Source: Alienimonas californiensis
GTDB lineage: Bacteria; Planctomycetota; Planctomycetia; Planctomycetales; Planctomycetaceae
Assembly (NCBI RefSeq): GCF_007743815.1
Contig: NZ_CP036265.1
Span: forward strand, 4,843,823 to 4,907,822
Length of the DNA stretch: 64,000 nt
Direction of reading: 5' to 3'
Shown here: positions 7,337 to 63,409 of the stretch, one piece after another
How the letters are laid out: every line of letters begins with the position of its first letter
Numbering within the stretch: the stretch's first letter is position 1
The notes under the pieces: model-generated
Databases searched by the model: none
Seen by the model: the letters and a program-made list of their open reading frames with translations, nothing else
What the model was told of the DNA's origin: nothing
Translations under genes and position numbers: made by a program

Positions 7337-8494
7337 TCAGAACGTCCGCGATTCGCTAAGAACGGCCGCAGTCTGGATCGCGTCGCCGCGGACCTTCGTC
7401 GCCGGGTAGAGCCCGCCGGGCGGCAGGTCGGCCCAGCCGCCCCGGCCGAACGTCCAGTCCTCCTGCGTGAACTGCTCGGCGACCAGATGGCGGCCGTATC
7501 CGCCTTCTAACCGGGTCCACTCCGCGAGGCCCGCCGCGGTCCGGCCGGCGGCGCTCAGCAGGCCCGCTTCGCCCACCATGCAGCCGAGTTGGCAGGGGAT
7601 TCCGCGGTTCGCTGCCCAGACGAAGACATCCCACAGGCGCAGCAACCCGCCGTTCTTGCTGAGCCGCAGGTTGAACCGGCAGGTCGGGTCGAGGGCGTGC
7701 AGCCGCTTGGCGTCCGCGGGACAGAGGACGGATTCGTCCCAGACGACCGGCAGCGCCAGGCCCCGCGGCAGTTCGTGCTCCCGGCCACGGGGGACGGGTT
7801 GTTCGACGCTCTCGAAGCCCAACCGGGCCAACATGTCGCACTTCGCGGCGACTTCGGCCGGCTCCCACGCCTCGTTGGCGTCGGCCCGCAGCGCGATCTT
7901 CGGACCGAACCAGTGCCGGGCCTGCCGGGCGGCGACCTCGTCGTCGCCGACGCCCAGCTTCAGCTTCGCGTCGCGGAAGCCCCACAAGCGATAGGCCAGC
8001 GCCGCCGCCCGCCGCTTCCACGCCTTGCCGGTGGTGAGCACGACGCCGTACTGCACCCGGCCGGCGCCCGCGCTCCTCGAGCCGGCCGGCCGCGTCAGGT
8101 GCGGGACTGGATCGACCGCGAACGCCGCCAGCACGGCGGTCTCCACGGCGCAGCGGACCGTGTTGCCGTCGCCCGACCGGTCGCTGGGCGCCGGGAGAAA
8201 GGGGCCGTGCAGCCAGCGAACGACCGCCGCGTCGTCCAGCAGCGGCGGGGGGGCTGCGATTCGGAGGAGCTGGGCGAAGCAACTGTCGATGGTCTCGCCA
8301 GTGACGTATTCCCGCGGCAGGCCTTCGCCCCAGCCGACGCGGCCGTCGTCCGTCTCCGCCTGCACGAACAGCGCGTCGTTCTCCGTCCGCGTGTGCGAGG
8401 CGTGCGACACCGTCCGCCGCAGCGGCACGCGCACGTGGTAGAACGTCAGCCGGGCCAGCCGCGGCACGCCGTCAGGTCCGCTCGCCGGCGGCAT
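7337..8494 (-). CDS. enolase-superfamily enzyme, muconate cycloisomerase/dipeptide epimerase-like
   Basis: A 385-residue cytoplasmic enzyme of the mandelate racemase/muconate lactonizing branch. Enolase N-terminal capping domain first (about 10-130; TFYHVRVPLRRTVSHASHTR), then a TIM barrel with the expected catalytic positions: Lys pair in AKLKLG, metal ligands in RADANEAW, ESVEQP and VVWDES, and a Lys in RLSKNGGL on the opposite face. These are consistent with proton abstraction from a carboxylate substrate. Family members include dipeptide epimerases and o-succinylbenzoate synthase; the motif GCMVGEAGLLSAAG is closer to the epimerase/OSBS-like group, but the substrate cannot be set. The start (ATG 8494) overlaps the end of the upstream SDR gene by 23 nt, so the two are probably one operon. 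Confidence 0.8.
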   Translation of the reverse strand: MPPASGPDGVPRLARLTFYHVRVPLRRTVSHASHTRTENDALFVQAETDDGRVGWGEGLPREYVTGETIDSCFAQLLRIAAPPPLLDDAAVVRWLHGPFLPAPSDRSGDGNTVRCAVETAVLAAFAVDPVPHLTRPAGSRSAGAGRVQYGVVLTTGKAWKRRAAALAYRLWGFRDAKLKLGVGDDEVAARQARHWFGPKIALRADANEAWEPAEVAAKCDMLARLGFESVEQPVPRGREHELPRGLALPVVWDESVLCPADAKRLHALDPTCRFNLRLSKNGGLLRLWDVFVWAANRGIPCQLGCMVGEAGLLSAAGRTAAGLAEWTRLEGGYGRHLVAEQFTQEDWTFGRGGWADLPPGGLYPATKVRGDAIQTAAVLSESRTF

Positions 8495-61270: not shown

Positions 61271-61780
61271 GTGACCGCTGCCGACCTCCACACCGCTCTC
61301 CGCGACCGCTTCGGCGACGCCGTGCGGGATCTGCGCGCGGCGACCGATCCTTGGATCGAGATCGCCGCCGACGCCGTGCCGGACGTGTTGACGCACCTGC
61401 GGGACGAGCACGGCCTGCGGCACCTCAACGATCTGACCGCCTACGACTTCGCCCCCCGGGCGGGCGAGGAAGGGAAGTACCAGGGGGAGCCGCGGCTGGA
61501 GGTCGTCTACCGCCTCTCCAACTTCCCGCTGACGCAGGCGCACACGCTCAAAGTCGTCCTGCCCCGCGGCACGAACGACGACCTGCCAGAGGTCCCCAGC
61601 GCCAGCGGGATCTTCCCCATCGCGGAGTGGCACGAGCGGGAGACGTTCGACCTGCTCGGCGTGAACTTCACCGGTCACCCGAACCTCTGCCGCATCCTCA
61701 CCTCCGACGACTGGGTCGGCCACCCGCTGCGGAAGGACTACGAAATGCCGGAGGAATACGGCGGCATTCGGTGTCGGTGA
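61271..61780 (+). CDS. nuoC: NADH-quinone oxidoreductase subunit C
   Basis: A 169-residue peripheral subunit (30 kDa type) of the hydrophilic arm of complex I. The C-terminal signature is intact: GIFPIAEWHERETFDLLGVNFTGHPNLCRILTSDDWVGHPLRKDYEMP, with ERETFDLLG and HPLRKDY. It starts with GTG 61271, 1 nt after nuoA. It ends 10 nt before a 26-bp palindrome. NuoB, which normally lies between A and C, is absent from this window. Confidence 0.94.
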   Translation: MTAADLHTALRDRFGDAVRDLRAATDPWIEIAADAVPDVLTHLRDEHGLRHLNDLTAYDFAPRAGEEGKYQGEPRLEVVYRLSNFPLTQAHTLKVVLPRGTNDDLPEVPSASGIFPIAEWHERETFDLLGVNFTGHPNLCRILTSDDWVGHPLRKDYEMPEEYGGIRCR

Positions 61781-61790
61781 GTCGCCAAGT

Positions 61791-61816
61791 CGCGGAGGCC
61801 CCGCGGGGCCTCCGCG
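61791..61816. terminator. 26-bp perfect palindrome after nuoC
   Basis: Positions 61791-61803 pair with 61804-61816 without a mismatch, all G or C except one A and one T per half. As RNA it would form a very stable hairpin ten bases after the nuoC stop. It is followed directly by GTTACAAT, which contains the putative -10 box of the RNA downstream. It may act as terminator, operator or both. Confidence 0.5.
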
Positions 61817-61817
61817 T

Positions 61818-61823
61818 TACAAT
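61818..61823 (+). promoter_or_regulatory. possible -10 box (TACAAT) for the RNA candidate
   Basis: TACAAT is one base off consensus, and the run of Gs where the RNA helix begins (61829) lies 6 nt downstream, the expected start distance. The -35 position falls in the GC palindrome and has no match, so promoter function is uncertain. Confidence 0.35.
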
Positions 61824-61828
61824 CCTCC

Positions 61829-61960
61829 GGGGCTTCGCCTGGAAGGCGATGGCCAGCCGTGCGACTTCGCGTCGTTGATCCCGCCGGTTTACTGCGGGTA
61901 GGCGGTTCCTCCGGGAACAGTCATCGGGGGTTCGATTCCCCCCCGGGCGAAGCCCTTTTT
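61829..61960 (+). ncRNA. tRNA-like structured RNA candidate between nuoC and nuoD
   Basis: The ends pair in a 13-bp helix (61830-61842 with 61943-61955, one G-U). A T-arm-like hairpin, GGGGG-TTCGATT-CCCCC (61926-61942), stacks on it with no gap, as in tRNA. After the 5' strand come AA, then a 3-bp D-arm-like hairpin with loop GATGGCCA (61845-61858), which places A14, G18, G19 and A21 like a tRNA. A 7-nt loop CTTCGCG (61865-61871) on a four-pair stem is a possible anticodon loop (UCG). Positions 61877-61925 would be a giant variable region with hairpins CCCGC/GCGGG and GTTCC-TCCG-GGAAC. Five Ts follow. It is not a canonical tRNA, tmRNA, 5S or SRP RNA. Confidence 0.5.
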
Positions 61961-61974
61961 AGCTCTGAGGATTG

Positions 61975-63222
61975 ATGAACGCCGTCGCCGCCCCGCCGCT
62001 CGACCCGCGGACGATCGAGTTCGACGTCCGCACCGAGGAGATGCTCGTCAACATGGGGCCGCAGCACCCCAGCACGCACGGCGTGCTGCGGCTGCTCCTC
62101 CGCACCGACGGGGAGATCGTCCGCGAGTGCACGCCGCACATCGGCTACCTGCACCGCTGCGCGGAGAAGATCGGCGAGAACCTCACGCCGGCCCAGTACA
62201 TCCCGTACACGGACCGGATGGACTACCTCGCCGCGATGAACATGAACCTCGGCTGGTCCTGCACCGTCGAGAAAATGCTGGGGATCGACGTGCCGGAGAA
62301 GGGCCGGCACCTGCGGGTGGCGATCGCGGAGTTGGGCCGAATCGCCTCGCACCTGTTGGGTATGGGGGCGTACGGGTTGGACCTCGGGTCGTTCAGTCCG
62401 TTCCTGTACGCGTTCCGCGAACGGGAGATGATCCTCGACCTGTTCGAACACGTCTGCGGCGCCCGGCTGACCTACAGCTACCTCACCCCCGGCGGGGCGA
62501 CGCACGACCTGCCGGAGGTCGTCCCGATGCCGCCCGGTCTCGCCGCGATGACCGGCGTGCCGGAGGGAACCGAAATGAGCTGGTGCGACGTCGTCCGGCA
62601 CTTTCTCACCTGGTTCGAGCCCCGGATCGAGGAGTACCACACGCTGCTGACCCGCAACGGGATCTTCATCAAACGCACCGCCGGTCTCGGCGTGATGGAC
62701 GCCGACATGGCGATCGGCCACGGCTGCACCGGCCCAGTCCTCCGCGGCAGCGGCGTCGACCACGATCTCCGCCGCGACGGCGAGGAGATCTACACGCGGC
62801 ACTACGACGACTACGACTTCGACATTCCCGTCGGCCCGTTCCCCGAGGCCCCGCCCGAAGCCGTCCTCGGCGACAACTGGACGCGGTTCTACGTCCGGAT
62901 GATGGAGGTCGTGCAGAGCGTCGGCCTGATCCGGCAGGCTCTGGACCGCTACGAGGCGACCGACGGCCCCTTCCGCGTCGCCCACCGCTGGAACCAGAAA
63001 TTGCCGAAGGACGAGGTCTACCTCGAGACCGAGTGCCCCCGCGGGCAGATGGGCTTCGGCATCGTCGGCGACGGCAGTCCGATCCCGCTGCGGGCCCGGG
63101 CGAAAAGCAGTTCGTTCTGCAATCTCTCCGTGATCGGCCCGCTGAGCGTGGGCTGCTTTATCGCGGACGTGCCGTCGATCCTGGGCAGTCTCGACGTGGT
63201 GATGGGGGAGATCGACCGCTGA
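61975..63222 (+). CDS. nuoD: NADH-quinone oxidoreductase subunit D
   Basis: A 415-residue 49 kDa-type subunit that forms the quinone site with NuoB. Signature LVNMGPQHPSTHGVLRLLLR at the N terminus, EKIGENLTPAQYIPYTDRMDYLAAM, GRIASHLLGMGAYGLDLG, GVMDADMAIGHGCTGPVLRGSGV, and the end block PSILGSLDVVMGEIDR. ATG 61975 has TGAGG four bases upstream; an in-frame TTG at 61972 adds one residue and was not used. It is separated from nuoC by 194 nt that hold the palindrome and RNA candidate. A hairpin follows at 63272-63298. Confidence 0.96.
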   Translation: MNAVAAPPLDPRTIEFDVRTEEMLVNMGPQHPSTHGVLRLLLRTDGEIVRECTPHIGYLHRCAEKIGENLTPAQYIPYTDRMDYLAAMNMNLGWSCTVEKMLGIDVPEKGRHLRVAIAELGRIASHLLGMGAYGLDLGSFSPFLYAFREREMILDLFEHVCGARLTYSYLTPGGATHDLPEVVPMPPGLAAMTGVPEGTEMSWCDVVRHFLTWFEPRIEEYHTLLTRNGIFIKRTAGLGVMDADMAIGHGCTGPVLRGSGVDHDLRRDGEEIYTRHYDDYDFDIPVGPFPEAPPEAVLGDNWTRFYVRMMEVVQSVGLIRQALDRYEATDGPFRVAHRWNQKLPKDEVYLETECPRGQMGFGIVGDGSPIPLRARAKSSSFCNLSVIGPLSVGCFIADVPSILGSLDVVMGEIDR

Positions 63223-63336: not shown

Positions 63337-63409
63337 GCCGTCGTAGCTCAGCTGGTAGAGCGACGCTCTCGTAAAGCGTAGGTCGTGGGTTCAAATCCCA
63401 CCGACGGCT
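63337..63409 (+). tRNA. tRNA-Thr (anticodon CGT)
   Basis: A 73-nt cloverleaf. The acceptor stem GCCGTCG pairs with CGACGGC, with discriminator T. D-arm GCTC-AGCTGGTA-GAGC, anticodon stem ACGCT/AGCGT with loop CTCGTAA (anticodon CGT, reads ACG), variable loop AGGTC, T-arm GTGGG-TTCAAAT-CCCAC. CCA is not encoded; the gene is followed by TTTTTC, a plausible short terminator. It is independent of the tRNA-like candidate 1.4 kb upstream. Confidence 0.95.

Follow-up and report, generated by a model that had tools for sequence, protein, structure and literature searches.

A tRNA-like RNA with an extended acceptor helix between nuoC and nuoD of Alienimonas californiensis, and its relatives in the Planctomycetia

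Introduction

Among structured RNAs that resemble tRNA, those that work outside translation are, to our knowledge, few, and most of them were chance finds. The closest described systems differ in how far they depart from the tRNA plan. Allo-tRNAs have an acceptor domain of 12 bp, and in the allo-tRNA-UAU group a five-stem junction is possible (Mukai et al. 2017, as given in sections of PMC7609411). According to the same sections, allo-tRNA-UAU species are inactive in E. coli and are suspected companions of transposable elements. Bacillus cereus tRNA-Other is a pseudo-tRNA with a Trp anticodon and is linked to T-box regulation, as stated in part of PMC3399842.

Here we describe an RNA of Alienimonas californiensis that has no Rfam family and persists in different planctomycete families, where base changes in its pairs compensate for one another. 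It retains the part of tRNA that is gripped by tRNA enzymes and appears to have lost both working ends, which raises the question of which planctomycete factor binds a tRNA elbow incapable of charging or decoding.

Architecture of the RNA

The window analysed is a stretch of 64,000 nucleotides from a contig of 5,475,215 bp (NZ_CP036265.1), and coordinates without a prefix refer to it. Within the nuo cluster, where the first-pass annotation had placed the RNA, nuoC occupies positions 61271–61780, with its stop at 61780, and the ATG of nuoD is at 61975. The gap between the two genes holds an RNA-like unit of about 125 nt on the forward strand (61829–61956), which is single-copy in its own genome. 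The minimum free energy of 61829–61960 is −71.2 kcal/mol (z = −3.6), and one of 200 shuffled sequences folds equally well. The order of the elements from 5′ to 3′ is P1, AA, D-arm, hp2, hp3, hp4, ATC, T-arm and P1′; three hairpins are thus present besides P1, the D-arm and the T-arm.

P1 is the extended acceptor helix, with its 5′ strand at 61829–61842 and its 3′ strand, which ends without an encoded CCA, at 61943–61956. The strands GGGCTTCGCCTGG/CCGGGCGAAGCCC form 13 bp, and a terminal G-U makes a fourteenth pair that can be added to the helix as first annotated. P1 stacks without a gap on a perfect T-arm of 5 bp (61926–61942, GGGGG-TTCGATT-CCCCC), the loop of which has TTCGA in all members of the family described below. 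The AA linker (61843–61844), at tRNA positions 8-9, is AA in all seven members. The D-arm (61845–61858) has a 3-bp stem (61845–61847/61856–61858) and a loop, GATGGCCA, with A14, GG18-19 and A21 in place, as had been proposed. Folding of this arm costs the sequence just 0.1 kcal/mol, and it is part of the minimum free energy fold in A. chondri and in G052, a relative from the same family.

The hairpin hp2 (61861–61875), directly 3′ of the D-arm, is separated from the D-stem by one or two bases and so begins at the point where a tRNA would have its anticodon arm. The first-pass annotation had allowed for a 7-nt anticodon loop at this place. That part of its description does not stand, since hp2 has 5 bp and closes to a loop of 5 nt, and the loop has 4–6 nt in the relatives; a canonical anticodon loop is therefore lacking. 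The next hairpin, hp3 (61880–61898), has 5 bp and the loop CGGTTTACT. It is followed by hp4 (61901–61922), which corresponds to the long variable arm of class II tRNAs (GGC...GTC) and lies at the position that this arm has in tRNA-Ser. The ATC linker (61923–61925), which joins the variable arm to the T-arm, is identical in planctomycete tRNA-Ser, for example at loci L278 and L282.

The nuo cluster has two tRNA-type genes, this RNA and a tRNA-Thr(CGU) at 63337–63409, directly 3′ of nuoD. The tRNA-Thr gene has a similar position in A. chondri.

Members of the family

Covariance models and motif scans were run over several hundred planctomycete genomes; searches of more than 40 genomes used strict filters, under which members may be missed. 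Alienimonas chondri LzC2 carries the RNA in the same nuoC–nuoD gap, about 88–90% identical and with the stems kept. A model built from two sequences (R1) and run over 398 genomes of the class matched a genome of another family, G381, with an E-value of 2e-8, and the models R2 and R3 added G408, G131 and G814. With R3, the score is 63.3 bits for G408, which is in the training set of this model, and 58.5 bits for G131, which is outside it. G052 was found by a plain 15-mer D-arm motif, a query free of structure, and then scored 77.4 bits with R3 as an out-of-sample check. The six firm members, four of which come from other genera or families, score 58–119 bits, while G814, with 43.5 bits, is a weaker, tRNA-shaped relative. 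The family set consists of these seven sequences: both Alienimonas species, G381, G408, G131, G052 and G814. The G408 copy (L273:1501-1680) is partial, because a run of N lies directly 3′ of its T-arm; beyond this run is a second GTCTTCGGAGGTTCGAATCCT, which may reflect either a tandem RNA or an attachment-site repeat.

Ordinary planctomycete tRNA-Ser, tRNA-Cys and tRNA-Arg score mostly 25–32 bits with the family models, and nearly all model matches at 25–35 bits are ordinary tRNAs by ARAGORN. Two matches, G798 at 35.2 bits and G917 at 28.1 bits, are not tRNAs by ARAGORN but lack the conserved D-arm and were not counted; L151 and L152 (27 bits) were left out of the set. Pattern scans of viral contigs for homologues in viruses, phages and plasmids gave only coding-sequence or chance matches, or none; the matches of one of these scans were too unspecific to be judged individually. 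A blastn search with the G381 copy returned matches of T-arm size only. In genus g136, two of 15 genomes have the RNA, and the scatter across genomes suggests horizontal movement or frequent loss. That the unit is a real, conserved RNA is almost certain.

Covariation and conservation

Both-sided changes are found in 23 of the 36 pairs over the seven sequences, compared with 13.9 in shuffles and 2–7 in controls with the register slid. The cells pair in 92% of cases and the covariation score is 0.52, which falls to 0.06–0.10 when the 3′ partners are slid by 1–3 columns. Having been fitted to the model, the alignment leans towards structure, but neither the slid nor the shuffled controls come near these values, and G052 and G131 are outside the training set. 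Among the three full-length sequences, nine pairs changed on both sides and all P1 cells are paired. Covariation of the stems and their conservation in A. chondri are the opposite of the outcome that the first-pass annotation had named as fatal to its proposal. Its central observation, a folded tRNA-like RNA of no known class, thus agrees with the covarying stems and with the Rfam results given below.

In P1, nine of the 12 pairs modelled show variation on both sides; covarying pairs number three of four in hp2, all five in hp3 and three of seven in hp4; in the D-arm, a G-C pair of A. californiensis is C-G in the six other members. The most conserved stretch is GCGATGGC[CT]AGC. The hp3 loop, GGTT.AC, is conserved in five of the seven members, and hp3 is missing in G814. 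The length of P1 is 13–14 bp in both Alienimonas species, 12 bp in G381, 11 bp in G052, 8 bp in G131 and 7 bp in G814, so that an over-long acceptor is not constant in the family. G814 shares the 16-nt AACGCGATGGCCAGCG D-arm and, with its 7-bp acceptor and the loss of hp3, may represent an ancestral, tRNA-like type or else a genuine gene of the tRNA-SeC kind. An alternative helix, CGATGGC/GTCATCG, which would resemble P2 of tmRNA, is perfect in Alienimonas and G381; it was dropped because it is broken in G052, G131 and G408.

Relation to tRNA-Ser and to known RNA classes

The 3′ half of the RNA finds its closest planctomycete parallel in tRNA-Ser. In tRNA-Ser of related planctomycetes (L278, L282), the anticodon arm is followed by TAT, the variable arm GGCC..GGTC, ATC and the T-arm GGGGGTTCGA; in the RNA, hp3 is followed by TA, GGC...GTC, ATC and the T-arm GGGGGTTCGA. 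Thus, hp3 sits at the place of the anticodon arm and hp4 at that of the long variable arm. The elbow features of class II tRNAs are all present, namely A14, G18G19, A21, TTCGA and the long GGC...GTC arm. The canonical class II combination of a 7-bp acceptor and a 5-bp T-stem is replaced by one of 13–14 bp and 5 bp in both Alienimonas species, and an extra hairpin gives two stems at the position of one. Neither hp2, with its loops of 4–6 nt, nor hp3, which has no U33 in place, offers a 7-nt anticodon loop with U33, G814 being the one arguable exception. Based on this syntax of the arms, rather than on a tree, we infer that the RNA may have originated from a tRNA-Ser. That it is both derived from tRNA-Ser and non-decoding is probable.

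The tRNAs of the A. californiensis genome were listed by a model search and then taken one by one, and all four tRNA-Ser isoacceptors are encoded elsewhere than in the gap. The genome also contains a tRNA-like stretch of 61 nt (L464, C1:3404357-3404417), which scores 34.5 bits with the tRNA model, is not called by ARAGORN and has an anticodon arm and a T-arm with almost no D-arm.

No Rfam family reaches threshold in the window, and ARAGORN has no accepted match on the locus. YrlA (RF02553) ranks first among the Rfam matches in the region, with 19.6 bits against a gathering cut-off of 69, and is aligned to the T-arm and the start of nuoD. The tRNA-Sec model (RF01852; cut-off 47) has no match in the window and gives 19.8 bits for G814. 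A tmRNA was rejected, ARAGORN -m finding none at the A. californiensis and A. chondri loci. The acceptor domain of 12 bp that allo-tRNAs have (8/4 or 9/3) is not found either; its counterpart here, counted with the 5-bp T-stem, has 18–19 bp.

Genomic context and alternative explanations

The TACAAT box reported earlier exists at 61818–61823, 5 nt 5′ of the RNA, but its reading as a promoter is not supported: it consists mostly of one end of the palindrome GTAACGC-GGAGGCCCCGCGGGGCCTCC-GCGTTAC, and a sigma-70 promoter scan found no −35 hexamer that fits it and no sigma-70 pair. This intergenic palindrome (61791–61816), a neighbour outside the RNA, is REP-like, recurs at tens of further sites of the genome and also occurs in A. 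chondri. The T5 run is present at 61956–61960, as noted in the first pass, although it reads TTTCC in A. chondri and is absent in the other members.

The copies outside Alienimonas lie beside a rhamnogalacturonan lyase gene and a DUF1801 gene in G381, a tyrosine integrase gene (PF00589) in G408, a Bro-N (DinD-like) gene and DUF1501 in G052, OsmC in G131 and uncharacterised genes in G814. Since relatives in other genera are found at unrelated genes, the RNA looks free-standing. A cis-acting leader of nuoD (an attenuator or riboswitch), which had been one of three initial readings, would explain why the RNA ends about 20 nt 5′ of the nuoD start, with a T run, a strong helix and possible read-through from nuoC. 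This reading is very unlikely, since the RNA stands beside nuoD only in Alienimonas, its homologues are at other genes and the 20 other planctomycete nuoD loci examined have no such RNA upstream; in addition, the scan found no terminator-like site. The gene could also belong to integrative elements as a pseudo-tRNA or attachment-site module; it would then mark, or itself be, the place where a tyrosine-integrase element inserts, and would have no RNA function beyond this. The integrase about 170 bp from the G408 copy, the recurrence of the T-arm sequence after the N gap in that genome and the sporadic distribution are consistent with such a module, and tRNA and pseudo-tRNA genes are often flanked by genomic islands (from part of PMC3399842). 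However, covariation of pairs extends through the entire molecule and is seen between families, which an attachment site does not need. No integrase was recognised among the ORFs inspected near the G381, G052, G131 and G814 copies, the Alienimonas RNA is single-copy with nuo neighbours, and the integrase neighbour, seen in one genome, is only a hint; we consider the module improbable.

The variation in P1 length (7–14 bp) allows leader–trailer pairing of a precursor, and the long P1 could be a pre-tRNA pairing of this kind that is trimmable by RNase P. A non-canonical functional tRNA, of the allo-tRNA or tRNA-Sec-like type, would then be trimmed to a 7-bp acceptor by RNase P, charged by SerRS via the variable arm, and decode or suppress a codon. 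The 7–8 bp of P1 in G814 and G131 fit this proposal, as do the tRNA-Ser-like half with the variable arm and T-arm and the reading of G814 (L482:1501-1587) by ARAGORN as tRNA-SeC(tca), with anticodon UCA. The missing CCA is no argument against it, because the tRNA-Ser genes of this genome encode none either. However, the hp2 loops are short, the GGTT.AC loop of hp3 has no U33 at the canonical place, two stems occupy the site of one, and the tRNA-Sec model scores G814 far below the cut-off and has no match in the window. Since a conserved canonical 7-nt anticodon loop is lacking and the set of tRNA-Ser isoacceptors is complete elsewhere, a functional tRNA, including the divergent decoding tRNA first suggested, is unlikely. 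A Y RNA, in which a long terminal stem binds Rsr (Ro60) and a tRNA-like part mimics tRNA, has the same general plan; each of the two Alienimonas genomes has a gene for a TROVE protein, and YrlA, weak as its match is, tops the Rfam matches in the region. On the other hand, two YrlA-like RNAs (44.7 and 40.3 bits) are already present beside the TROVE gene, the tRNA parts of YrlA are permuted, with the T-arm first, whereas here the D-arm comes first, and the carriers G381 and G408 have no TROVE match. A Y RNA is therefore the reading to which we give hardly any weight.

The two YrlA-like RNAs (C1:915188-915298 and 915464-915540; L469:7189-7299 and 7465-7541, minus strand) lie about 200–500 nt upstream of the TROVE/Ro60 gene of A. 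californiensis on the same strand. Both are below the Rfam cut-off of 69, and they are very likely genuine planctomycete Y RNAs.

Possible function

The best explanation overall, to which we assign an even chance, is a non-decoding mimic derived from tRNA-Ser that acts in trans via its elbow. It is close to the regulatory tRNA mimic of the first-pass annotation, the best fit of its three readings and the one that is retained. A class II (serine-type) tRNA would have become a structured RNA of about 125 nt and lost decoding. The T-arm and the long variable arm would have been retained together with the elbow, which joins GG of the D-loop and TTCGA of the T-loop, while the acceptor would have been lengthened to a sealed duplex of 7–14 bp, depending on the member, and hairpins with short loops would have replaced the anticodon arm. 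The elbow could be bound by a protein or RNP that reads it, such as a tRNA-processing or tRNA-modifying enzyme, RNase P or Z, or a factor of the host or of a mobile element. Since the sealed acceptor and the absent anticodon loop would exclude the RNA from aminoacylation and from the ribosome while the elbow is bound, a decoy or scaffold role may be envisaged. Elbow binding in trans is, taken by itself, a tentative proposal. The gene, sporadic and perhaps mobile, would have settled between nuoC and nuoD in the common ancestor of the two Alienimonas species. We would equally tentatively regard the RNA as a new family of bacterial tRNA-mimic sRNAs, in which a serine-type body with its elbow intact is combined with a sealed acceptor and a six-way junction, and which is scattered through the Planctomycetia, perhaps by mobile elements, and occupies or redirects a tRNA-binding factor in trans.

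Comparison with described tRNA-like RNAs

The open-access literature on tRNA-like noncoding RNAs of Planctomycetes yielded nothing that describes this RNA, and each described system shares a different part of its plan. YrlA (RF02553) has the terminal stem and the tRNA mimic in common with it, and differs in its permuted arm order and in Rsr binding, with distinct YrlA-like copies in the same genome. The tRNA-Sec class (RF01852) has the class II body with a long variable arm and a longer acceptor, but the acceptor of bacterial selC has 8 bp and the anticodon loop carries UCA. Bacillus cereus tRNA-Other likewise resembles tRNA while standing apart from translation, and lies next to a genomic island; compared by description only, it has a Trp anticodon, and neither an extended acceptor nor extra arms are mentioned for it (part of PMC3399842). 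It provides a precedent for a tRNA-like RNA that works outside translation. Allo-tRNAs, which according to the sections of PMC7609411 mentioned above occur in Clostridia, Proteobacteria and Acidobacteria, resemble the RNA in the serine-type body (allo-tRNA-Ser), the altered acceptor and the extra stem of the UAU group. They have an anticodon and an extra loop between the acceptor and the D-arm, whereas the RNA described here has a 5-bp T-arm, an acceptor of up to 14 bp and, following the D-arm, an extra hairpin, and it keeps no anticodon loop. As far as those sections go, the allo-tRNA-UAU group comes closest in kind among published RNAs, although its arrangement differs.
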